Below, in pieces: positions 23,282 through 63,474 of a stretch of DNA of 64,000 bases. Position 1 is the stretch's first letter, and each line of letters begins with the position of its first letter. Source of the stretch: Betaproteobacteria bacterium. Its GTDB lineage: Bacteria > Pseudomonadota > Gammaproteobacteria > Burkholderiales > Burkholderiaceae_F. Location of the stretch: positions 1-64,000 of the forward strand of contig VBCK01000135.1 in assembly GCA_005882215.1 (NCBI GenBank), given 5' to 3'. The translations under genes and the position numbers were made by a program. Under the pieces are notes generated by a model. It saw only the letters and a program-made list of their open reading frames with translations, had not been told where the DNA came from and made no database searches.

Positions 23282-23677
23282 ATGAAGATGCATATTCTTG
23301 CTGCGGCGTTCCTGACGGCACTGGCCGCGCGCGGAGCCTCCGCGTCCAGCGAAGGCGGCGACACCTGGTCCGCGCTCGAGCCCGTTCAGCGGTCGACCTT
23401 GGTTCTGCAGGCCCCGCCGCATGCCGCCCCCACGGCCTCCGGTCTGGACGCCCGCTGGGACGGCTCCGAGGGCGGCGACACCTGGTCGCACCTGCAAGCC
23501 CTGCGCCAGGCGGGCAGCGGACAGGCCAGCTCCGAGGACCGTGCCGCCTCGAGCGACACCGGGACCGCAAGCCCCACGGCCGCTTCCGAGGGCGGCGACA
23601 CCTGGTCGCGCCTTCAGCCGCGGAAGCAGGGCGGGCCGGCGCAGACCGCGGGCCTGGCGGCGAAGCCGATGCTCTGA
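23282..23677 (+). CDS. Secreted SEGGDTWS-repeat protein (member A)
   Basis: 131 residues. Signal peptide about 1-22 (ILAAAFLTALAARGASAS), then three copies of SEGGDTWS at residues 23, 62 and 102, each followed by an xL(E/Q)xx stretch; the period is 39-40 residues. Linkers are rich in Ala, Pro, Ser, Gly and Gln, so the mature protein is probably unstructured between motifs. No C-terminal domain. Ribosome-binding site GAAGGGAG. Two relatives lie at 56948-57526 and 61006-61407. Placed between an RND pump and a TetR regulator, downstream of the 20-bp palindrome. I do not know a function; a periplasmic stress or metal role is a guess from the relatives' context. Confidence 0.75.
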   Translation: MKMHILAAAFLTALAARGASASSEGGDTWSALEPVQRSTLVLQAPPHAAPTASGLDARWDGSEGGDTWSHLQALRQAGSGQASSEDRAASSDTGTASPTAASEGGDTWSRLQPRKQGGPAQTAGLAAKPML

Positions 23678-23758
23678 GCAACATTGGCCGAGCGTCTCGA
23701 CGTCTGATCCGAACCGCTTCGGTATCATCTGCTCCAGAGGAACTGCGCAAAGTGAGCG

Positions 23759-54076: not shown

Positions 54077-55417
54077 TCAGTTCGCGTCTCTTCCCTGGAC
54101 GATCAGGAAATTGTCGACGACAAAATCGGCGACATCACGACCCAGCCGGTGACCCGCGGTCAGGTCAAAGCGGAAATGCTGTCCGGCGAAAATCCGGCTC
54201 AACGACGCCTCCTCGGACGCGGCCGCGAAGCTCGTGAACGAACGCTGCACGCCGGGCAGGACTTCAGAAGTCACGTTGAATTCGAAGTGATCCGCCTCGA
54301 AGAATGAATCGAGTACCTCTGCCGCTGCCGCGCTGATGACGGCATGGGCGCCGGGATACGATGGATCGGGTGCCGTTTTGCCGGCCTGCGGCAGCCAATT
54401 CGCGTCGGCCAGCGCGTCAGGATTGTCCTCGGTGTCCGCTGCCCTTATTGCCGTAACCGGCCGCCAGAAATTGTAGGCGTACTTTGCATCGTAGAAAGCG
54501 ATCACGCTGTCCGCGAAGCTCAGATTAAGGAGCGCAAACAGTCTGGCGCTCTGCGCCGTCGACAGCTGGCGTCCGGCTGAAGCCGTCTGTGCAATCTCGT
54601 TCCAATAATTCTGTATCGCCCCGTTCCAGAATCGACCTGTGAGGGCCTCGTCGGCGGTCGCTGTCGTGCTGCCGGCGATCCCCATTGATTCGACCTCATC
54701 GAGATCGTCGGCGTACTTTTCGCTGCGCAACGCGGGAGGAGGCCCCGGCCGGAACTGGTCTGCCCGCGGCAGAGCAAAAGGCTTCACATGCGGCCAGTGC
54801 GTGAACTGCGGTTGAGGCGGAAAATTCGGCGGCGTGGACTGGTAGTCACCCGGAGCCTGTCCAAAGACATACGGAATTGGCCGCGCATTGGCCCCGTCGT
54901 TGGCCCTCAACTGCAGCAGCCGGCCCGCAACCGTTGTTCCGATCCGCGCGCCCTCCGACTTGTCGGGTCCATCCGGAATCGCCGCCAAGGACTGCGCGAG
55001 TCCCGTATCCAGCATGTTCCTGAAAGCCGGATACAAGGCGGCCAGGACATCATGCGCTGCGGTCGATGCCGCCGCATCCTTCGAAGCGCTTTGTGACGCA
55101 TCCGCTACACGGACCCGATATACCGTGTGCTTCCCGTCTATCGCATTGACCGCGTCATAGATGGCGCCATGCATAATGGCAAAGCTGTGAGTCGTGTGAA
55201 CGGTCGCAGGCTGAGCGTTGGGAGTGCGGACAATGATGAGCAGGATCTTGTTCCATTGAGTAACGGGATTGACGCCCTGATCTGCTGCGGCTTGCGCGTT
55301 GGGTTGCAAGTTGGAGCTTCCTGCAGCGTGTGAGTCCGCTGCCGGGAAGGCGTTACCCACGAACGGCGTAACGAACAGAATCATCAATCGCAGCACGGGC
55401 GAGCGGAGGCTGAGCAT
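54077..55417 (-). CDS. Vanadium-dependent haloperoxidase-like (PAP2-fold) secreted protein
   Basis: 446 residues with signal peptide (LRLMILFVTPFVGNAFPAADSHA). The vanadate/phosphate pocket motifs are present: KYAYNFWRPVTAIR, SYPGAHAVISAA and R-x5-H in RIFAGQHFRFDLTAGH. This is the layout of bacterial vanadium haloperoxidase-related acid phosphatases, which either oxidise halides with peroxide or hydrolyse phosphate; the split is not readable from sequence. It lies 39 bases after the porin gene, so it probably shares the ECF-type promoter at 56908-56934. GGGAG precedes the ATG. Confidence 0.86.
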   Translation of the reverse strand: MLSLRSPVLRLMILFVTPFVGNAFPAADSHAAGSSNLQPNAQAAADQGVNPVTQWNKILLIIVRTPNAQPATVHTTHSFAIMHGAIYDAVNAIDGKHTVYRVRVADASQSASKDAAASTAAHDVLAALYPAFRNMLDTGLAQSLAAIPDGPDKSEGARIGTTVAGRLLQLRANDGANARPIPYVFGQAPGDYQSTPPNFPPQPQFTHWPHVKPFALPRADQFRPGPPPALRSEKYADDLDEVESMGIAGSTTATADEALTGRFWNGAIQNYWNEIAQTASAGRQLSTAQSARLFALLNLSFADSVIAFYDAKYAYNFWRPVTAIRAADTEDNPDALADANWLPQAGKTAPDPSYPGAHAVISAAAAEVLDSFFEADHFEFNVTSEVLPGVQRSFTSFAAASEEASLSRIFAGQHFRFDLTAGHRLGRDVADFVVDNFLIVQGRDAN

Positions 55418-55456: not shown

Positions 55457-56866
55457 CTAGAAGTTGAACCGCCCGCCGATCGTTGGATCGATCGTCCAGC
55501 TGTTCAGGTAGCCGGCAGCGATACCGTCGGCGACGTGGGACCACATGAAGCCGGCGTAAGCGTCGAAGCGGCGGTCGAACTTGTAGTCGGCTACCAGCGA
55601 GTAGGCATCGAGCCTACCGCTGCAAGCCCCGGAGTCCCTGGTTCCGCCAGGGCACTTCGCTGTGACGTTGTAATTGTTCTGGTTGTAGTGGTACCAGGCG
55701 CCGATCAGATCGAAACTCTTCGTAAACGAGCACTTCGCGCCCAGCCAGCTGATCTGCAGCGTCTTCGCACCGTTCGGGTACGCGTTGTTGTTAACGAACC
55801 CGAGCGTGTAGCCGCCGATGTCGGGCGAGCCGGCCGCGAGCGGCGTCTGCGGATTGCGGAAATGGATGTCCTCGTAGCCCATCGAGGCTTTGACGCGGCC
55901 GTAAACATATGACGCATCCAATGACCAGGTCCAGTCGTCCGATACTGTCGCGGCAACCGCGGTGTCCGACGAGATACCGGCCGGAAGGCAGTTGACCGCC
56001 GAACTGGCGCCGCCGAAAGCGGGTGTCGTGGGACACCTTGCGAGCGCGACGCCCAGCGGTGCAGCCAGGATGGCGCCCTTCTTGTTGACGTAAGCTGCAT
56101 CGACCGACAGGCCGGGGAGGAAATCGCCGCCCAGGTCGAACTCGGTCGCGTTGCCGCCGGAACCGGTGCCGCCGCCGGACTGGAACTGGGCGCCGATGCG
56201 GAACAGTCCGACCTGGTTGATGTACTTGACCGAGTTGTCCAGCCGCGCATCCTGCGTATCGCCCGAGCCCGCGGCCGCTCCCGAGTACCCGATCACCGAA
56301 AACGCATACGAGCCGCCCAGCGGGTCGTACTTCAGCACGTTGTCCAGCAGCAGCCCGTTTTGCCGGCCGACGGTCAGCGTGCCGTACACCGGCGAACTGA
56401 CTCCCCCATACGCCGCTCCCTGGAACGGCTGACCGGCCCGACTCGAGTCACCTTGCGTCGTCCGGTTGGCCAACGGAACTCCGTTGTTCTGCGTTATCGC
56501 CTTGAGCGCATCGGACAGATTGGCCGACAGCGGGTTGAAGCCGGTCTCCAGCTTGAAGATGCCCGCCCACCCTTCCAAAAACTCGCGGGTGCCCCTGAGG
56601 CCGATCTTCGACTGGCTCAACCCGTTCTCGGACAGGGACGAAATCGACCTATTGTTCGATGGCTGAATAAGGTACTGCAGGCCGGTCGGGAAGTAGTCGT
56701 TCAGCGGGGTGCCGCGGTTCTGATACGTGTAGCCGACGTCGACGGTTCCATACAACGTGACGCCGAACCAGGTCAGGCTTTCGTCCGCGCCGTCCGCGGC
56801 GTATGCGGCATTGGCCCAACCGGCCAGAACAGTCAGGGCGCTGGCGTATGCGAGAAACTGTTTCAA
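55457..56866 (-). CDS. Outer-membrane porin (Gram-negative trimeric porin family)
   Basis: 469 residues starting at a TTG (56866) with GGGAG seven bases upstream. Signal peptide KQFLAYASALTVLAGWANAAYA, then SLTWFGVTLYGTVDVGYTYQN and GLRGTREFLEGWAGIFKLETGFN, the burkholderial porin pattern, and terminal phenylalanine in GGRFNF as needed by the Bam machinery. Expression is probably under the ECF promoter directly upstream, with the haloperoxidase-like gene as second cistron. Longer than typical 350-400-residue porins owing to extended loops. Confidence 0.93.
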   Translation of the reverse strand: MKQFLAYASALTVLAGWANAAYAADGADESLTWFGVTLYGTVDVGYTYQNRGTPLNDYFPTGLQYLIQPSNNRSISSLSENGLSQSKIGLRGTREFLEGWAGIFKLETGFNPLSANLSDALKAITQNNGVPLANRTTQGDSSRAGQPFQGAAYGGVSSPVYGTLTVGRQNGLLLDNVLKYDPLGGSYAFSVIGYSGAAAGSGDTQDARLDNSVKYINQVGLFRIGAQFQSGGGTGSGGNATEFDLGGDFLPGLSVDAAYVNKKGAILAAPLGVALARCPTTPAFGGASSAVNCLPAGISSDTAVAATVSDDWTWSLDASYVYGRVKASMGYEDIHFRNPQTPLAAGSPDIGGYTLGFVNNNAYPNGAKTLQISWLGAKCSFTKSFDLIGAWYHYNQNNYNVTAKCPGGTRDSGACSGRLDAYSLVADYKFDRRFDAYAGFMWSHVADGIAAGYLNSWTIDPTIGGRFNF

Positions 56867-56907: not shown

Positions 56908-56934
56908 ATACCGCCACCACGCCCCGCTTATTCC
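56908..56934 (-). promoter_or_regulatory. ECF-type promoter of porin/haloperoxidase genes
   Basis: On the minus strand: GGAATAA, exactly 14 bases, CGGTAT. Both boxes and the spacing match the promoter before the ECF sigma gene; the downstream bases GGCATCAGAACCGGTGCA also match it closely. Located between the CzcE-like gene and the porin start, about 40 bases before the TTG. Confidence 0.75.
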
Positions 56935-56947
56935 GTCATTGGATACA

Positions 56948-57526
56948 TCACCCTCCGCGATACCGCGAATCCGGGGCGACGAAGATGCGGACGTTCTGGG
57001 CAGGAAGGTCCGCCGGAGCGACGTCACTCAGATCGAGATGAGTCAAGACGGGTGACACGTCGAAGCGCCAGGCGAACGATCGCTCCAAACCGTTCGTACC
57101 GTTGACGATGAACTTCACCGTTTCGCCATAGGCGACGTTGATCGAGCGGGAGTCGGGTCCCAGCCGCACGATCCTGTCCGCGAAATCGACCTGCGCCGGC
57201 GTGCCGTAGACACTCGCGTATTCACGCTGCAGCGTGCTCAAAGGCGCGGTCGTTGCCAATACGGGCGACTGGCTCGAACCTGCATAGGGCTGCGGTTGCA
57301 ATTCCGACCACGTGTCGCCGCCCTCGGAGCGCGGAGGCGCGCCGTACAGGTAGTCGCGCTGCAAGCTGCTCACGGGCGCGGGTGCTGGCACCGTGAACGG
57401 CCGCTTCGAACGTGCAACCGGTTCCGGTTGCAGTTCCGACCACGTGTCGCCGCCCTCGCTGCTCGCAAATGCGGCGTGCGAGCACAGAGCGGCAAACGCT
57501 GCCACCAATACGAGATGCATCTTCAT
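56948..57526 (-). CDS. Secreted SEGGDTWS-repeat protein with CzcE-like domain (member B)
   Basis: 192 residues. Signal peptide 1-21 (VLVAAFAALCSHAAFA). SEGGDTWSELQP motifs at residues 23 and 67. The C-terminal part (about 113-192) reads FADRIVRLGPDSRSINVAYGE, VKFIVNG, SFAWRFDVSP, LDLSDVAP, IFVAPDSRYRGG, the pattern of CzcE, a periplasmic copper-binding protein of Cupriavidus. The link of repeat region and CzcE domain suggests a periplasmic metal sensor or buffer. Its upstream 86 bases are duplicated before member C. The ECF promoter of the porin starts right after its stop. Confidence 0.85.
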   Translation of the reverse strand: MKMHLVLVAAFAALCSHAAFASSEGGDTWSELQPEPVARSKRPFTVPAPAPVSSLQRDYLYGAPPRSEGGDTWSELQPQPYAGSSQSPVLATTAPLSTLQREYASVYGTPAQVDFADRIVRLGPDSRSINVAYGETVKFIVNGTNGLERSFAWRFDVSPVLTHLDLSDVAPADLPAQNVRIFVAPDSRYRGG

Positions 57527-57612
57527 CGAAAGCTCCCTTGTCTGGTTGACGTCGTGCCATTTGGCAGATCGTGACGTGCAGTACCGGTCGGTTTGCCACG
57601 ATATTCAAACTT
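57527..57612 (-). promoter_or_regulatory. Conserved 86-bp upstream block of member B (copy 1)
   Basis: From AGTTTGAATATCGTG to the ribosome-binding site GGGAGC this block is nearly identical to 60920-61005 on the other strand. It contains TGCCATTTGGCA (57555-57566), a one-mismatch version of the perfect palindrome in copy 2. Conservation of non-coding DNA points to a shared promoter, operator or leader structure. Confidence 0.7.
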
Positions 57613-57847
57613 TTCGTCACCGAAGGTCTGCAACGATCGCGGATCGGCCGGCACACTTGCCGCCGTGGCATCAGAGCCGACGCAGGCTGAGTCTGTCGCG
57701 CGCGCGATCAGACCCGGCGGGCATCGCGTTGTCAACGCGTGCCGCTCGGCTGGAGCATTGAGTCCGGCGTGGGGCCGAAAACGACCAGAGTACGGGAGGG
57801 TTGTACGAAGACGCCGTCTTTACCGCCCGAGCGCCATCGAGCTCGGC
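57613..57847. other. Intergenic stretch with no gene seen
   Basis: 235 bases between the conserved leader of the CzcE-like gene and the cupredoxin stop. No reading frame looks coding and no family is recognised; there is no obvious terminator with a T tract. Confidence 0.5.
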
Positions 57848-58222
57848 TTATTGCTTGCGTACATGCACGACGGCGGTCATGAACGGATGAATGGTGCACG
57901 TGTAGTTAAAGTCACCTTCGCTGGCAAAGGTGTGCTCGAACTTGTCGCCGGTATCCAAGCCCTTCGAGGCAAAGCTCTTGTTGTTGCTGGTCACGGTATG
58001 CGGCGTTTCGTCTCGATTGATCCAGACGATCGTGGTGCCGGGTGCAATCGTGACTTCCTTCGGCACGAACGCGAACTTCGAGATATTCAGATCGACGGTC
58101 GCTGCGGGTGTGGCCGCCGCCGCGCCAATGGCAGCCATCGCCAAGGCCGCACCGAAGACCGGCATTAGAGCGGCCCAGGCGCGAAGCGGGCGAGTGGCGT
58201 TGCGAGCAAAAGCGTAGCTCAT
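57848..58222 (-). CDS. Cupredoxin (plastocyanin/amicyanin-like blue copper protein)
   Basis: 124 residues from the ATG at 58222 behind AGGGAGAA. Signal peptide ends about residue 38 (AMAAIGAAAATPA). Type 1 copper ligands are in place: His75 in DETPHTVTS, Cys109, His112 and Met115 in YTCTIHPFMTAVVHV. Single-domain periplasmic electron carrier or copper acceptor. Neighbour of a metallophosphoesterase and an ECF sigma/anti-sigma pair, a combination I associate with Burkholderiales. A long inverted repeat lies upstream. Confidence 0.92.
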   Translation of the reverse strand: MSYAFARNATRPLRAWAALMPVFGAALAMAAIGAAAATPAATVDLNISKFAFVPKEVTIAPGTTIVWINRDETPHTVTSNNKSFASKGLDTGDKFEHTFASEGDFNYTCTIHPFMTAVVHVRKQ

Positions 58223-58250
58223 GGGATTCTCCCTGTCGGTATCCAAGATT

Positions 58251-58315
58251 TTGCAAAACCGCGCCGCCTGCGCTCGATGCGACGGCACCTCCCAACGCCC
58301 GAAGCGGTTTTGCAA
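58251..58315. promoter_or_regulatory. 12-bp inverted repeat upstream of the cupredoxin gene
   Basis: TTGCAAAACCGC (58251-58262) and its exact reverse complement GCGGTTTTGCAA (58304-58315) are 41 bases apart. They could pair in RNA as a terminator-like stem after the phosphoesterase gene or be two half-sites for a regulator of the cupredoxin gene. Each arm extends a TTTTGCAA core. Confidence 0.6.
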
Positions 58316-58331
58316 GCAATTCGAATGAAAA

Positions 58332-59297
58332 TCAGCGATCGAGCGGCGTGTCGAGCAGCGCGAGTTCATGCCCTCCGCGCACAACGCTCAGCTGGCGCGT
58401 TCCGAGCAGCTTGCCGAGTTCGCCGGCCGGCACTTTGACCGGGCCGGGCTCGCCGATGCCCTCTTGTCCGGGTGTTGGCAGTGGGTAGGCGAGCGACATC
58501 GCGGTGTGCAGCGCGATATGGCCCTCGACCTTCTGCAGCACTTGATGGATGTGTCCGTTCAGTACCGTGACCGATCCGAACGGACGCAACAGCGCCATCG
58601 CCTGCGCGGAATCGGCCGTGCCCCAGCCCCAGGGCTCCCAAATCGTCCACAGCGGAATATGCGCCAGCACCACGATCGGTGTCGAGCGGGAGACGCGCGC
58701 CAGATCGCCTTTCAGCCAGGCGATCTGCTCATCGCCGAGCGCCGCCATCGTACCCATCTTGAAGTTGAGCACGTTGTTCAAACCGATGAAATGCACGCCA
58801 CCCTGGTCGAAGCTGTACCAGGACTTGCCTTTGCCGTCATGATCGAAGAACTTCAGATAACCGGTCACGCCTTCATCGATCGTGTCGTGTTCGCCCGGAA
58901 TCGTGTGCACGCGAGCGACACGGATTTCCTGCAGTACCTCGCGCGCCTTGCCGAATTCCTCGGGTTTCGACAAATGGCTCACATCGCCCGTGTGCACCAC
59001 GAAGGCCGGCGCTTGCGGCAGTGCGTTGATGTCGGCGATCGCGCGGCGCAGGCTGCCGACAACGTCGGGATTGGCTTCCTTGTGAAAGCCGATATGCGTA
59101 TCGCTGATCTGCACGAAGGTCAGCGCATTCTTCGCCGCCACTGCCGTGGGACTACCCTCGCTCGTGGCGCCGAGCGCGCGCGGCACGCCACCGGCAACCG
59201 TCCAGACGACGGCGGCGCCGGTCCACGTGGCAAGGCAGCTCAATGCCTGGCGGCGGGCCGGTCTATGGCCGGGCCCGGTAGGGTCGTTCGTGCTCAT
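58332..59297 (-). CDS. Tat-exported calcineurin-like metallophosphoesterase
   Basis: 321 residues. Twin-arginine signal at RPARRQALSCLATWTGAAVV (Arg15-Arg16). Metal-site motifs in order: Asp66-x-His68 in ISDTHIGFH, Gly104-Asp105, GEHD at 135-138 (family GNHD), His213 in LAHIPLW, GHIH at 248-251. The fold binds two metals and hydrolyses phosphoesters; substrate unknown. It has its own ECF-type promoter at 59341-59367, just after the anti-sigma stop, so it is a target as well as a neighbour of the sigma factor. Confidence 0.92.
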   Translation of the reverse strand: MSTNDPTGPGHRPARRQALSCLATWTGAAVVWTVAGGVPRALGATSEGSPTAVAAKNALTFVQISDTHIGFHKEANPDVVGSLRRAIADINALPQAPAFVVHTGDVSHLSKPEEFGKAREVLQEIRVARVHTIPGEHDTIDEGVTGYLKFFDHDGKGKSWYSFDQGGVHFIGLNNVLNFKMGTMAALGDEQIAWLKGDLARVSRSTPIVVLAHIPLWTIWEPWGWGTADSAQAMALLRPFGSVTVLNGHIHQVLQKVEGHIALHTAMSLAYPLPTPGQEGIGEPGPVKVPAGELGKLLGTRQLSVVRGGHELALLDTPLDR

Positions 59298-59340
59298 GGG
59301 TGGTTCCTCGCAGTGGTGGTGGGAATGCCTATATCGGGCA

Positions 59341-59367
59341 ATACCGACAAGAGCGAGGATTTATTCT
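59341..59367 (-). promoter_or_regulatory. ECF-type promoter of the metallophosphoesterase gene
   Basis: Minus strand: AGAATAA, 14 bases, CGGTAT. One base differs from the sigma and porin promoters in the -35 box; spacing is the same. It lies partly in the gap after the anti-sigma gene, about 45 bases before the ATG at 59297. Confidence 0.7.
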
Positions 59368-59372
59368 CGACA

Positions 59373-60176
59373 TCAGGCGGCGGAAGCGGATCGAATCAAC
59401 GCCATCAGGTGCTGCAGTTCGTCCGGCTCGACATCGGATACGGCGCAAAAGTTCATCCCGCCCGCGCTCCAGCGCACCACGTTGTATCCCCGGCTGGCCC
59501 GCGTCAGGCTGGATACTCCGGAGACGCCGCGCGCAACGGGCCAGATGAACACGTCGATTTCGTGCTGGCGCTTGCGGTAAGCCAGAACCGCAACACGCGT
59601 GTGATCCAGGTAATCGAGTCGCCCGCCGATCAGCGGAAATCCGTCGGCGCCCAGATCGTGCACGGGCGGCGAGAAATCCAGCTTGCCGGCGAACCACGGC
59701 TTGACCGTATGCTGGTCGGACGAGGCCACGTCAAAGGCGTGATCCGTCACGAGGGCCCGCGCGTGGTCGCCGACTGTTTCATCCAGCAGGCGATCATCGG
59801 CCGACGGCCCCGCAAACTGCACTCCGACCGTGAAGGCCAGAATCGCGGCGGCCACCGGGACGGCGGCGCCCATTCCCCAACTGGGCCACCAGGACGGCAG
59901 CGAGAAGCTCGGCGCGCTTCGCGTGGGCTTGCCTGTGCGGGTGGCAGCACGCGGCTCGGCTCGAATCTGCGCCCCGATTCGTGACCGCAGGTCCGGCGGC
60001 GCACGAAAGTACTCGGCTTGGGCGCGCAGCGACCCCGACAAATCCTGCAGGTCTTTCAGCGTGGCCTGGCAATGCGTGCACGCAGCCAGGTGCGCTTCCA
60101 CGTCCCGGCTCTCGCGCGCGCCCAGCTCGCCGTCGAGCAGCGCCGATTGCAGTTCCAAAGCATCATTGCAGCGCAT
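59373..60176 (-). CDS. Zinc-finger anti-sigma factor
   Basis: 267 residues from the ATG at 60176, overlapping the sigma gene by 14 bases. N-terminal anti-sigma zinc-finger: LLDGELGARESRDVEAHLAACTHC with His29-x3-Cys33-x2-Cys36. One membrane helix (about 102-122, GAAVPVAAAILAFTVGVQFAG). The periplasmic C-terminal part (GYNVVRWSAGGMNFCAVSDVE) matches the usual end of ECF-linked anti-sigma factors near cupredoxins. It should hold the sigma factor at the membrane until a periplasmic signal arrives. Confidence 0.9.
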   Translation of the reverse strand: MRCNDALELQSALLDGELGARESRDVEAHLAACTHCQATLKDLQDLSGSLRAQAEYFRAPPDLRSRIGAQIRAEPRAATRTGKPTRSAPSFSLPSWWPSWGMGAAVPVAAAILAFTVGVQFAGPSADDRLLDETVGDHARALVTDHAFDVASSDQHTVKPWFAGKLDFSPPVHDLGADGFPLIGGRLDYLDHTRVAVLAYRKRQHEIDVFIWPVARGVSGVSSLTRASRGYNVVRWSAGGMNFCAVSDVEPDELQHLMALIRSASAA

Positions 60177-60741
60177 CGGCGCCTCCCACATTTTCTTGCC
60201 GGAGGTATCGCCCCAGCAGTTGTCGGCCGCGCGAAAGGCGCGACATCACCGTGCCGATCGGAATTGCCTGAACCGCAGCGATTTCGCGGTATGACAAATC
60301 TTCGAGCTCACGCAGCACGACCGCCTCGCGCAGCTCGATCGGCAGCCGCGCCAGCGCGTCGTTGATCGCACGCCGATCCTGCGTGCGCATTGCGTGACGC
60401 TCCGGGGTCTCGGGCTCGGGGCCATTCTCCGCGCGGGCATCGCCGTGGATGTCCTCTTCGTACGGCACCTGGACGTTCGGGGGGCGGTTCTTTCCCAGCC
60501 AGGTGAACGCCGTGTTGCGCACGATCGCCAGCAACCACGGGCGGGCGTTGTCGCCCCTGAATCCTCCGAACGCGCGGAAAGCCCGCAAGAACGCGTCCTG
60601 AACGATGTCGTTCGCGTCGTCGTCGTTGCGAACCAGCCAACGCGCCAGGTTATAGGCCGCATCCAGGTGCTGCAGCGCCAGCGTCTCGAAACGCTGTCGC
60701 TTGTCTCCATCGGAAGAATCTTCGCCCCGTTCGCTCGTCAT
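60163..60741 (-). CDS. ECF-family RNA polymerase sigma factor
   Basis: 192 residues from the ATG at 60741. Region 2 is LDAAYNLARWLVRNDDDANDIVQDAFLRAFRAF; region 4 is LPIELREAVVLRELEDLSYREIAAVQAIPIGTVMSRLSRGRQLL. An earlier GTG at 60849 would leave a leader of only a few bases after the promoter at 60863-60889, so I prefer the later start. Recognises the shared (G/A)GAATAA-N14-CGGTAT promoters (inference); its own gene has one, so positive autoregulation is likely. Confidence 0.92.
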   Translation of the reverse strand: MTSERGEDSSDGDKRQRFETLALQHLDAAYNLARWLVRNDDDANDIVQDAFLRAFRAFGGFRGDNARPWLLAIVRNTAFTWLGKNRPPNVQVPYEEDIHGDARAENGPEPETPERHAMRTQDRRAINDALARLPIELREAVVLRELEDLSYREIAAVQAIPIGTVMSRLSRGRQLLGRYLRQENVGGADALQ

Positions 60742-60862
60742 GCACGCCCCCGCTGAGGGGAAGATCGTCGGAACCCTCGTCTTGGGCATCGGGGGAGCCG
60801 CGGAGCCCTTGCCCAGTCTGATCGCGATCACGACAAGCTCCCTTTGCACCGATTCTCATGCC

Positions 60863-60889
60863 ATACCGACCCGCGCCCCGATTTATTCC
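60863..60889 (-). promoter_or_regulatory. ECF-type autoregulatory promoter of the sigma gene
   Basis: Minus strand: GGAATAA, 14 bases, CGGTAT, followed by GGCATGAGAATCGGTGCA, almost the same as before the porin. About 120 bases before the chosen sigma start. The divergent SEGGDTWS gene starts at 61006 on the other strand. Confidence 0.78.
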
Positions 60890-60919: not shown

Positions 60920-61005
60920 AGTTTGAATATCGTGCCAGCCCGATCAGTACTGCACGTCACGATCTGCCAATTGGCACGACGTCAACCCAGACAAAGGAGC
61001 CTTTC
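60920..61005 (+). promoter_or_regulatory. Conserved 86-bp upstream block of member C (copy 2)
   Basis: Nearly identical to the block before member B. Contains the perfect 12-base palindrome TGCCAATTGGCA (60965-60976), about 20 bases before the ribosome-binding site AAAGGAGC. Either a dimeric regulator site or a leader hairpin shared by the two SEGGDTWS genes. Confidence 0.72.
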
Positions 61006-61407
61006 ATGAAGACGCATCTTGTAATGGCGGCAGCGTTTGCCGCTCTGTGCTCGCACGCCGCGTTTGCCGCCAGTGAAGGCGGCGACACCTGGTCGGAACT
61101 GCAACCGCAATCCGTCGCACGTTCGACCGGGTCGCTCGCGATCGCAACCGCCGCCTCATCGCCCAGCCCGCAAAGCTCTTCGATTCCAGCCAGCGAAGGC
61201 GGCGACACCTGGTCGGCGCTGCAACCGCAATCCGTTGCAGGTTCGGCCCGGCCGCCCGCGATCGCAACCAGCGCGCCAATGACCAGCCCGCAGGGCTTTC
61301 CGGTCCCCGCCAGTGAAGGCGGCGACACCTGGTCGGAATTGCATCCGCAAGGTGCTAAGAATGTTCGCGCCTTTGTTACTCCGGATGCGCGGTACCGCGG
61401 AGGATGA
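61006..61407 (+). CDS. Secreted SEGGDTWS-repeat protein without CzcE core (member C)
   Basis: 133 residues. Signal peptide 1-22 almost identical to member B (VMAAAFAALCSHAAFA). SEGGDTWS at residues 23, 63 and 103, exactly 40 apart; each is followed by (E/A)L(Q/H)PQ. The end, AKNVRAFVTPDARYRGG, matches the last residues of member B (AQNVRIFVAPDSRYRGG), but the roughly 65-residue CzcE core is missing. It looks like a copy of B in which the repeat expanded and the domain was lost. Divergent from the ECF sigma gene. Function unknown. Confidence 0.82.
   Translation: MKTHLVMAAAFAALCSHAAFAASEGGDTWSELQPQSVARSTGSLAIATAASSPSPQSSSIPASEGGDTWSALQPQSVAGSARPPAIATSAPMTSPQGFPVPASEGGDTWSELHPQGAKNVRAFVTPDARYRGG
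61072..61350 (+). repeat. 120-bp tandem coding repeat in the SEGGDTWS gene
   Basis: Units begin at 61072, 61192 and 61312, two full and one partial. The strongest identity is at GAAGGCGGCGACACCTGGTC and the following CTGCAACCGCAATCCGT. Exact 120-base spacing keeps the 40-residue protein period, as expected for slippage or unequal crossing over. Confidence 0.85.
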
Positions 61408-61789: not shown

Positions 61790-62563
61790 TCAGGAACGAG
61801 CGTGGGTTGAACGACGCAGCACCAGCGCTCCGAGCATCGCGCATACGGCCAGGGTCCAGACGATCACGGCGCCCGAAGGAAGGTCGAAGAGCGCCGACAG
61901 CGCCAGCCCGAACGCGTAGCCGGCCGCTCCCAGCGCGTAGCCTGTGAAGGTGCGCCTCGGTCCGCGAAGCGCGCGCGTCGCCAGCGCGGGGATGATCAGG
62001 CTCGAGAACACCAGGTAGACGCCGACCAGCTGCACCGAGGCAGTAATTGCCAGCGCGAAGGCGCCGTAAAAGCCGAAGCGGCCGAGCCGCAGCACCCAGC
62101 CCAGCCGCAGCGCCACCAGCAGCGGCACGGTGACCACCGCCAGCCAGAACAGCTGTCTGGTACTGACCCATAGGATCTGCCCGACCAGCAGATTCTGCAG
62201 GTGCTCGCCGCCGTGCGGATTGCTGGCCAGCAGCAGGATGCCTGCGCAGGCTGCCAGGATGAACATCACGCCGATCAGCGCTTCCTGTTGCTGCGGCATG
62301 CGACGCTCGGACCAGGTCAGCAACAGCGCGCCAAGCTGAGCCGCGCACAGCGCCGCCAACTGCACTTCGAGGCCGCCCTCGGGCACTCCCAGCGCATCGG
62401 CGGCAATCACGCCGAGCCCAGCGATCTGCGCAATCGCCAGATCGATGAACACAATGCCGCGGTCCAGCACTTGAGTGCCCAACGGCACGTGGGTCGCGAG
62501 CACCAGGAGCCCAGCGATCATCGCGGGGCCAAGAATGCCCCACTCGAGCGCGCTCCAGTTCAT
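61790..62563 (-). CDS. Metal ABC transporter permease (ZnuB/MntB type)
   Basis: 257 residues from the ATG at 62563, which overlaps the binding-protein stop (ATGA). Seven to eight helices, family pattern GTQVLDRGIVFIDLAIAQIAGLGV and LVFSSLIIPALATRAL. Imports zinc or manganese with the binding protein upstream. No ATPase gene is adjacent within the window; it may lie elsewhere or beyond the right edge. Confidence 0.88.
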   Translation of the reverse strand: MNWSALEWGILGPAMIAGLLVLATHVPLGTQVLDRGIVFIDLAIAQIAGLGVIAADALGVPEGGLEVQLAALCAAQLGALLLTWSERRMPQQQEALIGVMFILAACAGILLLASNPHGGEHLQNLLVGQILWVSTRQLFWLAVVTVPLLVALRLGWVLRLGRFGFYGAFALAITASVQLVGVYLVFSSLIIPALATRALRGPRRTFTGYALGAAGYAFGLALSALFDLPSGAVIVWTLAVCAMLGALVLRRSTHARS

Positions 62564-63474
62564 TTCTGAGCCTCCGCGGCCAGCAATCGGGCCAGCGTGT
62601 CGTCGAAAAGACCGAACAAGTCCTTGGCGCCTTCGGTTCCGCCCACCGTGAATGGCAGCTTCACCGCCGGAATCGCGGCGTGGCTGCTGAGCCATTCGGA
62701 TGGCCGTGGATCCAGGTAGGCGGCGTACAGCACCATGCGCACCCGCGTTCCCTTTAGCGTAGCCAGCACCTGCTCCAGGTGAGAAGCGCTTGGCTCCACG
62801 CCGGGCTTGGGTTCGAGCACGGCCACTTCCTTCATGCCGAGCCAGTCGTACAGGTAGGAGAAAGCCTTGTGCTGGGAGACCACGGGAACGCTCTTGAGCA
62901 GCGCTCCTTGTGCGGTCCAGCGGGCGATCGCGTCCCGCCACCTCTGCATGAAGTCGGCCTGGCGTTGAGCGTACTGGCTCGCGTTCGCCGGATCCACCTG
63001 CTGCAGACGAGCCCCGAGCGCGGCGGCCACCAGGGCGATGTTGCGCGGATCGGTCTGGATGTGAGGATTGCCCGATGCATGCACGTCGCCCTGAGAACGA
63101 TCGACCTGGCCCGGCACTTCCAGCTTGCGCACGTAATCGGCCGCCGCGAAGTTTCCGGGCTGGCCGGGTTGAACCTTCTCGTTGCCCGACTGTTGCAGCA
63201 GCACGGGCAGCCACCCGATTTCCAATTCGGCGCCGGTGCACACGACGAGGTCGGCGCTGCGCATGCGCGCGATCAGGCTCGGCTTGGCTTGGATCTGGTG
63301 CGGATCCTGCAGCGCGCTGGTGGCGACCGCAACGTCCACCAGGTCACCTCCAAGAGCCCGGGCCAGTGCGCCCCATTCCGGCTCGCAGGCGAGGATGCGA
63401 AGCGCCGCGTGGGCCGGCCATGCCGGCAGAGCCAGCGCAATCGCGCTCAGAGCGGTGAACCATGCGCGTTTCAT
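62560..63474 (-). CDS. Metal ABC transporter substrate-binding protein (ZnuA type)
   Basis: 304 residues with signal peptide (WFTALSAIALALPAWPAHA). Cluster A-1 fold: ILACEPEWGALARALGG, metal-ligand histidines in LQDPHQIQAKPSLI and ASGNPHIQTDPRN, and SQHKAFSYLYDWLGM. It lacks the His-rich loop of many ZnuA proteins. Periplasmic Zn2+ or Mn2+ capture for the permease that follows. Confidence 0.9.
   Translation of the reverse strand: MKRAWFTALSAIALALPAWPAHAALRILACEPEWGALARALGGDLVDVAVATSALQDPHQIQAKPSLIARMRSADLVVCTGAELEIGWLPVLLQQSGNEKVQPGQPGNFAAADYVRKLEVPGQVDRSQGDVHASGNPHIQTDPRNIALVAAALGARLQQVDPANASQYAQRQADFMQRWRDAIARWTAQGALLKSVPVVSQHKAFSYLYDWLGMKEVAVLEPKPGVEPSASHLEQVLATLKGTRVRMVLYAAYLDPRPSEWLSSHAAIPAVKLPFTVGGTEGAKDLFGLFDDTLARLLAAEAQK

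Follow-up and report, generated by a model that had tools for sequence, protein, structure and literature searches.

Candidate ECF sigma promoters with a fixed box spacing and their predicted targets in a Burkholderiales genome

The first 64,000 nucleotides of contig VBCK01000135.1 (hereafter the window), from a Betaproteobacteria bacterium assembly of 4.55 Mb in 302 contigs, contain genes for an extracytoplasmic function (ECF) sigma factor and its putative anti-sigma factor, a metallophosphoesterase (MPE), a cupredoxin, a porin-like protein and a haloperoxidase-like protein. Copies of one two-box motif stand in front of several of these genes, which raises the question of whether they form a single regulon and how it was assembled. 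We consider it quite probable that the sites as a whole are promoters of an ECF regulon read by the local sigma factor or a close paralog. As predicted members, the sigma/anti-sigma pair and the MPE with its cupredoxin are well supported, and the porin/haloperoxidase-like genes are only locally supported. The predicted core of the circuit recurs in many other proteobacteria. Coordinates are those of the window, and C-numbers denote contigs of the same genome.

A spaced two-box motif in the window and the genome

A first-pass annotation of this DNA had placed (G/A)GAATAA-N14-CGGTAT at three positions of the minus strand, and all three were found exactly there (Table 1). The window thus holds three matches, compared with a mean of 0.00 in 100 dinucleotide-preserving shuffles. 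The genome-wide scan that the annotation had called for returned six exact matches and no reversed-pattern control. The three outside the window are C139:3151, C197:8144 and C69:14803, the last immediately 5' of a paralogous sigma/anti-sigma pair. With one mismatch to GAATAA-N14-CGGTAT allowed, 14 genomic matches were obtained versus 2 controls. Two further sites with variant boxes precede a CzcE-domain gene and a repeat-protein gene divergent from the sigma gene. A relaxed core pattern matches five times in the window, always within 4.1 kb (56.9-61.0 kb), where 0.02 matches are expected, and KGAATAW-N14-CRGTAY, which omits the AGAATAA site before the MPE gene, matches eight times in the genome versus no control; these relaxed patterns were picked after both variant sites had been seen. 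Chance occurrence of the motif was rejected on the shuffles, the six matches against zero genomic controls and the 0.02 relaxed sites expected.

The distance from the -10 box to the start codon is 31 nt for the sigma gene (a GTG start with the Shine-Dalgarno-like AAAGGGAGC), 43 nt for MPE, 41 nt for the porin, 54 nt for the CzcE-domain gene and 55 nt for the repeat gene. Provided that the cupredoxin gene is co-transcribed with the MPE gene, as it probably is, every transcription unit recognised between 54.1 and 61.4 kb has a candidate site.

Table 1. Candidate promoters and genes of the locus, in window coordinates.
Feature	Position	Strand	Basis or remark
Candidate promoter GGAATAA-N14-CGGTAT, sigma/anti-sigma	60863..60889	-	Pattern match, genome count, block alignment
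Candidate promoter AGAATAA-N14-CGGTAT, MPE-cupredoxin	59341..59367	-	Outside the copied block; kept before MPE elsewhere
Candidate promoter GGAATAA-N14-CGGTAT, porin/haloperoxidase-like genes	56908..56934	-	In a 47-bp block common with the sigma promoter
Candidate variant promoter TGAATAT-N14-CGGTAC, CzcE-domain gene	57581..57607	-	Absent from the first-pass annotation
Candidate variant promoter TGAATAT-N14-CAGTAC, divergent repeat-protein gene	60924..60950	+	Absent from the first-pass annotation
ECF sigma factor	60163..60831	-	Sigma-70 regions 2 and 4; nearest NCBIfam model PRK12533
Putative anti-sigma factor	59373..60191	-	zf-HC2 domain, helix 111-125, then RseB/MucB small-domain fold
Calcineurin-like MPE, Tat-type N-terminus	58332..59297	-	GEHD for GNH(D/E); Pfam and fold match
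Cupredoxin (plastocyanin/azurin family)	57848..58222	-	Pfam
EGGDTW-repeat protein, C-terminal CzcE domain	56948..57526	-	PF16986, E 4.6e-16, 59.2 bits, cut-off 30
Porin-like protein, signal peptide, TTG start	55457..56866	-	Name read from sequence; no Pfam hit
Vanadium-haloperoxidase-like PAP2-superfamily protein	54077..55417	-	KX6RP, PGAH; PAP2 Pfam hit
EGGDTW-repeat protein, signal-peptide-like N-terminus, divergent from sigma	61006..61407	+	No Pfam hit

The predicted circuit and its recurrence in other genomes

The sigma factor has regions 2 and 4 only and an adjoining anti-sigma gene, as in ECF (group 4) sigma factors, and scores 229.6 bits against PRK12533 (cut-off 248). Two related sigma genes (51-53% identity) lie elsewhere in the genome, on C69 and C197, and each of these three most similar sigma genes is preceded by such a site. 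The C197 site, GGAATAC-N14-AGGTAC, aligns with GGAATAG-N14-CGGTAC in the congener G066, the boxes being kept and the spacer diverged. A separate rpoE-like locus on C12 carries genes for an RseB-like and a DegP-like protein (names read from the sequences).

The anti-sigma protein matches zf-HC2 with 33.3 bits (cut-off 22.2), which assigns it a zinc-binding class I anti-sigma domain; 31 of 33 aligned anti-sigma sequences match zf-HC2 at E <= 1, and RsiW was matched at E 2.8e-7. In a structure model built from 33 sequences (mean pLDDT 83.1), the N-terminus resembles MucA and RslA (Z 7.3 and 6.8), and residues ~167-272 resemble RseB/MucB chains (Z 9.1, 95 aligned residues, rmsd 3.0), the next other entry being 1vr8 (Z 8.2). 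A search for sequence homology between the distal domain and RseB was negative (hhalign probability 1.1% against the genome's own RseB-like protein). As the Foldseek E-value was also only ~0.002, the likeness to RseB/MucB is a statement on fold only. By predicted fold, then, the protein combines a MucA-like domain with the small domain of RseB/MucB, and the helix between them can be read as membrane-spanning. In Escherichia coli RpoE-RseA-RseB and Pseudomonas AlgU-MucA-MucB, to which the model points as similar in the cytoplasmic anti-sigma domain and the small-domain fold, the two parts are separate proteins, whereas the window system has both in one polypeptide. His161 and His210 are invariant among relatives and His143 is nearly so, which would fit metal sensing without being proof of it.

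Calcineurin-like MPEs are characterised by the motif set SD.H, GD, GNH(D/E), H and GH.H. The MPE encoded in the window has the remaining motifs, but GEHD where GNHD is expected at the metal site, and this replacement is present in all 32 related MPE open reading frames and in 25/25 aligned proteins, the window's among them. Its twin-arginine translocation (Tat) signal was read from the N-terminal RR motif, which is also invariant in 25/25. The protein resembles GpdQ/Rv0805-type enzymes in fold (GpdQ 3d03, E 2.4e-16) and, distantly, in sequence; it differs from them in GEHD, since the nearest solved structures, those of GpdQ, show GNHD in the alignment.

The circuit may work as follows. RNA polymerase carrying the local sigma factor, or either of two close paralogs, would read the sites through a -35 box GGAATA(A) and a -10 box CGGTA(T/C) separated by a fixed gap. 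The anti-sigma factor would hold sigma at the inner membrane, and because the fold of its distal part is that of the RseB/MucB small domain, a periplasmic signal would probably trigger release. That this signal is envelope metal (copper) or oxidant stress has perhaps an even chance of being right. Freed sigma would transcribe its own operon, the MPE and cupredoxin genes, and the genes of the CzcE-domain and repeat proteins; locally it would also transcribe the porin/haloperoxidase-like pair, which a copied block of the sigma promoter may have placed under sigma control.

Conservation was examined as the first-pass annotation had proposed, by comparing the same promoters in related genomes, and the boxes with their 14-nt gap do recur before MPE and/or sigma genes in distant genomes. 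A GTDB scan with the sigma sequence gave 220 relatives, the best 80 of which were kept as loci; MPE, cupredoxin, sigma and anti-sigma genes are in tandem in 17 of these 80, and some of the rest have MPE and sigma as a divergent pair. Motifs were counted at 41 of them (L064-L103 and L105, each having an anti-sigma match), 14 of which have no MPE with enough upstream sequence, leaving 27, and at 27 loci from the order and 4 from the family of the window's genome. The order loci left out were the genome's own and a second copy in G344. The motif (gap 14, up to 2 mismatches) stands on the same strand within 260 nt upstream of MPE in 34/58 loci (13/27 order, 17/27 GTDB, 4/4 family) and on either strand in 44/58 (18, 22 and 4). 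The reversed pattern was found at 0/58, with none in each set, and wrong gaps from 8 to 20 gave 0-2 matches each, except gap 18. Some of these species are close relatives, and the counts are not all independent. A stricter dyad, GGAAT-N16-CGGT(A/C), occurs upstream of MPE at 17/31 loci and at none with 12 other gaps. Many of the alphaproteobacterial sites end in CGGTCT.

Linkage in the order points the same way. Among its 300 genomes, GGAATAA-N14-CGGTAT occurs in 26 and a relative of MPE (E <= 1e-20) in 28. The window's genome was not counted, since AGAATAA at its own MPE site does not fit the GGAATAA of the query pattern; the other 299 have 25 and 27, respectively, with both in 10 genomes versus 2.3 expected (hypergeometric 9e-6, relatedness ignored). 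In those 10 the motif lies 89-174 bp from the aligned MPE, with one at 535 bp. Within the family, the exact motif occurs in 4/67 genomes and an anti-sigma relative (E <= 0.001) in 9/67. Five of 14 plasmid matches were also examined, and in four of these five a site with up to 2 mismatches precedes sigma, once at ~370 bp. In G066 an MPE gene has an exact site and no sigma gene in the 8 kb examined, and there the site would therefore act in trans.

In G145 (contig C5), from another family, MPE and cupredoxin are 89% and 75% identical to those of the window and sigma is only 52% identical, which suggests horizontal transfer of the MPE-cupredoxin pair; even so, both MPE and sigma have sites at 1-2 mismatches.

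Several results weigh against this account. The motif is lacking upstream of MPE in 24/58 loci on the same strand (14/58 on either strand) under the thresholds given above, and gap 18 matched in 6/27 loci of the GTDB set. Upstream of sigma the strict dyad was found in only 5/46 loci, and in 2/46 at a wrong gap; few are expected there because many of these sigma genes follow MPE in tandem, but the signal is still weaker than for MPE. The other order genomes hold 30 exact matches, 11 of them at MPE, and the remaining 19 compare with 11 reversed controls counted by eye, so that many matches away from MPE may be chance. In G062, a genome of the family, an exact match has no cluster gene in the surrounding 9 kb. 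Within the window's own genome, an MPE on C95 has no match within 2 mismatches, only GGAATTT-N14-CGGTAC, a cytochrome c peroxidase/MPE pair on C139 has no site upstream on the coding strand, and the closest G066 ortholog of the C69 sigma lacks the corresponding site. Six of ten CzcE/repeat-gene loci (L231, L233, L235, L236, L238, L239) lack a GAATA-N15-CGGTA site within 1 mismatch, and none of 14 haloperoxidase loci from elsewhere has the motif within 2 mismatches.

Copied promoter blocks and competing explanations

The independence of the sites was put into question when 11 of them were aligned pairwise with their flanks, in segments no longer than 800 bp. At the porin site, 47 bp starting at the -35 box are 85% identical to the sigma promoter, so that this site looks copied. 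Other matches to the same sigma-promoter region are C139:3151 (80%, 110 bp), C197:8144 (77%, 382 bp) and C139:10793 (73%, 56 bp), the last of which departs from the motif by 2 mismatches. No such block is common to the sigma promoter and the MPE or C69 regions. The upstream regions of the CzcE and repeat-gene variant sites are copies of one another, as a separate duplicated segment, and a C197 copy of the CzcE/repeat gene has CGAATAC-N14-CAGTAC at the equivalent place. The first-pass annotation had spoken of agreement in three unrelated intergenic regions; the MPE site is indeed independent, and the porin site is not, which leaves two independent cases plus a copy.

At C197:8144-8430 the sigma promoter is joined to a C-terminal piece of the anti-sigma gene (residues 194-271, 78% identity). 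Sigma and most of anti-sigma are thus missing there, and the segment appears to be what a deletion left of another copy of the sigma locus.

Some sites could be unused passengers of segment duplication, an explanation that we find rather unlikely. Repeated blocks do surround the intergenic region between the sigma and repeat genes, and C197:8144 precedes nothing but the anti-sigma remnant. However, the MPE and C69 sites are outside the copied block, copies and relatives retain the boxes but vary in the spacer, and the porin copy is a single short block reaching from the -35 box through the leader. A stronger competitor, which we regard as a serious minority possibility, accepts the sites as ECF promoters and has the porin/haloperoxidase and CzcE/repeat sites read mainly by one of the paralogous sigma factors, from C69 or C197. 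The existence of the two paralogs favours it, as does the box ending, GTAC at the CzcE/repeat and C197 sigma sites and GTAT at the sigma, MPE and porin sites of the window. Overlapping regulons are also reported for Sinorhizobium meliloti RpoE1 and RpoE4 in the portion of PMC3511301 available to us. Such crosstalk would sit less well with the block that the porin site has in common with the local sigma promoter. That the motif instead binds some other regulator, or serves as a housekeeping promoter, seems very improbable: sigma binding to it is a prediction from sequence, but the motif matches the published ECF26 -35/-10 type (as excerpted from PMC6180224), keeps a fixed gap and is linked to sigma, anti-sigma and MPE loci in distant genomes.

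Promoters of an ECF regulon read by the local sigma or a close paralog thus remain our preferred explanation. The regulon drawn in the first-pass annotation is supported, by motif conservation, for sigma/anti-sigma and the Tat-type MPE; for the porin and haloperoxidase-like genes the support is local only (0/14 haloperoxidase loci elsewhere). That inventory did not include the cupredoxin, the CzcE-domain protein, two of the sites or the two sigma paralogs, nor did it mention the published ECF26 type of promoter. A broader proposal, which we put forward tentatively and rate a little short of an even chance, is a widespread, undescribed envelope response of proteobacteria. Its anti-sigma factor, which carries an RseB-like domain of its own, would control a cupredoxin and a Tat-exported phosphoesterase with an altered GEHD metal site, and the system would recruit targets, here the porin and haloperoxidase-like genes, by placing copies of a short block of its own promoter in front of them.

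Relation to known systems and neighbouring genes

In the sections of PMC6180224, PMC3511301 and PMC10880074 available to us, both this type of promoter and the arrangement of sigma with anti-sigma belong to the published ECF26 kind and are thus already known. The ECF26 consensus is given as -35 GGAATA and -10 GT (PMC6180224), which the window motif fits, in sequence, before its own operon. The S. meliloti ECF26 members RpoE1, RpoE3, RpoE4 and RpoE6 resemble the window system in promoter type, downstream anti-sigma gene and small regulon; RpoE1 activates its own operon, and RpoE4 controls a sulfite oxidase-cytochrome-pseudoazurin operon (PMC6180224, PMC3511301), a periplasmic redox set like the regulon predicted here. 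The word "phosphoesterase" has no occurrence in the main texts of these two papers. Brucella BcrS was set aside as a counterpart, its boxes being reported as TGTAAC/GCGAAT in the part of PMC8315932 at hand.

The window sigma is 37% identical to the product of a pSymA gene taken as RpoE6 from its place, in a part of the record that carries no gene labels. A GGAATAG-N14-CGTTCT site with the same gap faces away from this gene. In the tree it was the sole ECF26 candidate included, and it falls outside the window-sigma clade on a long branch.

The first-pass annotation had called the combination of genes not known as described, and no description of it was found among the matches listed in searches covering open-access full text. 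Nor were the copied promoter blocks or the MPE-cupredoxin-sigma-anti-sigma cluster found in that literature, among the matches listed. The analysis offers a testable function for a recurring, apparently uncharacterised cluster, present from Methylobacterium to Burkholderiaceae, and a promoter that predicts targets in genomes possessing it. With its copied promoter blocks, the locus would clearly exemplify a sigma regulon growing by short duplications.

Vanadium haloperoxidases carry the motifs KX6RP, PSGH and SRX5HX4D. The haloperoxidase-like protein has KYAYNFWRP, and PGAH instead of PSGH. A haloperoxidase-motif search in other genomes gave 26 matches outside the window's genome, of which 14 were examined as loci with flanks. 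In G322 a haloperoxidase-like gene without a site of its own lies ~1.6 kb from a cupredoxin-MPE-sigma cluster.

Other sites near paralogs in the genome stand by genes for a YHS-like protein on C197 (20.9 bits, below the cut-off of 30.3), a di-haem oxidoreductase, also on C197, behind GGAATAAATCTCGCTCGCCTACGGTAA, and a DUF676-type esterase on C139. Judging from their families, the common theme of the site-linked genes may be copper and redox binding.

On C139 (6394-8903), a di-haem cytochrome c peroxidase gene is followed by one for another GEHD metallophosphoesterase. In L079, L090 and L092, from Rhizobium and relatives, a metallo-beta-lactamase-fold protein with a Tat-like N-terminus (Pfam assignment from L090 only) is encoded divergently from sigma behind the same type of predicted promoter, and no MPE was found in these three loci. 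Tandem EGGDTWS-type repeats occur in two proteins of the window (57218-57477 and 61061-61350) and are matched 10 times genome-wide, including an overlapping pair at window 23282-23722. Adjoining the island, at 61790-63474, are genes for a ZnuA-family zinc-uptake protein (Pfam) and a membrane protein.

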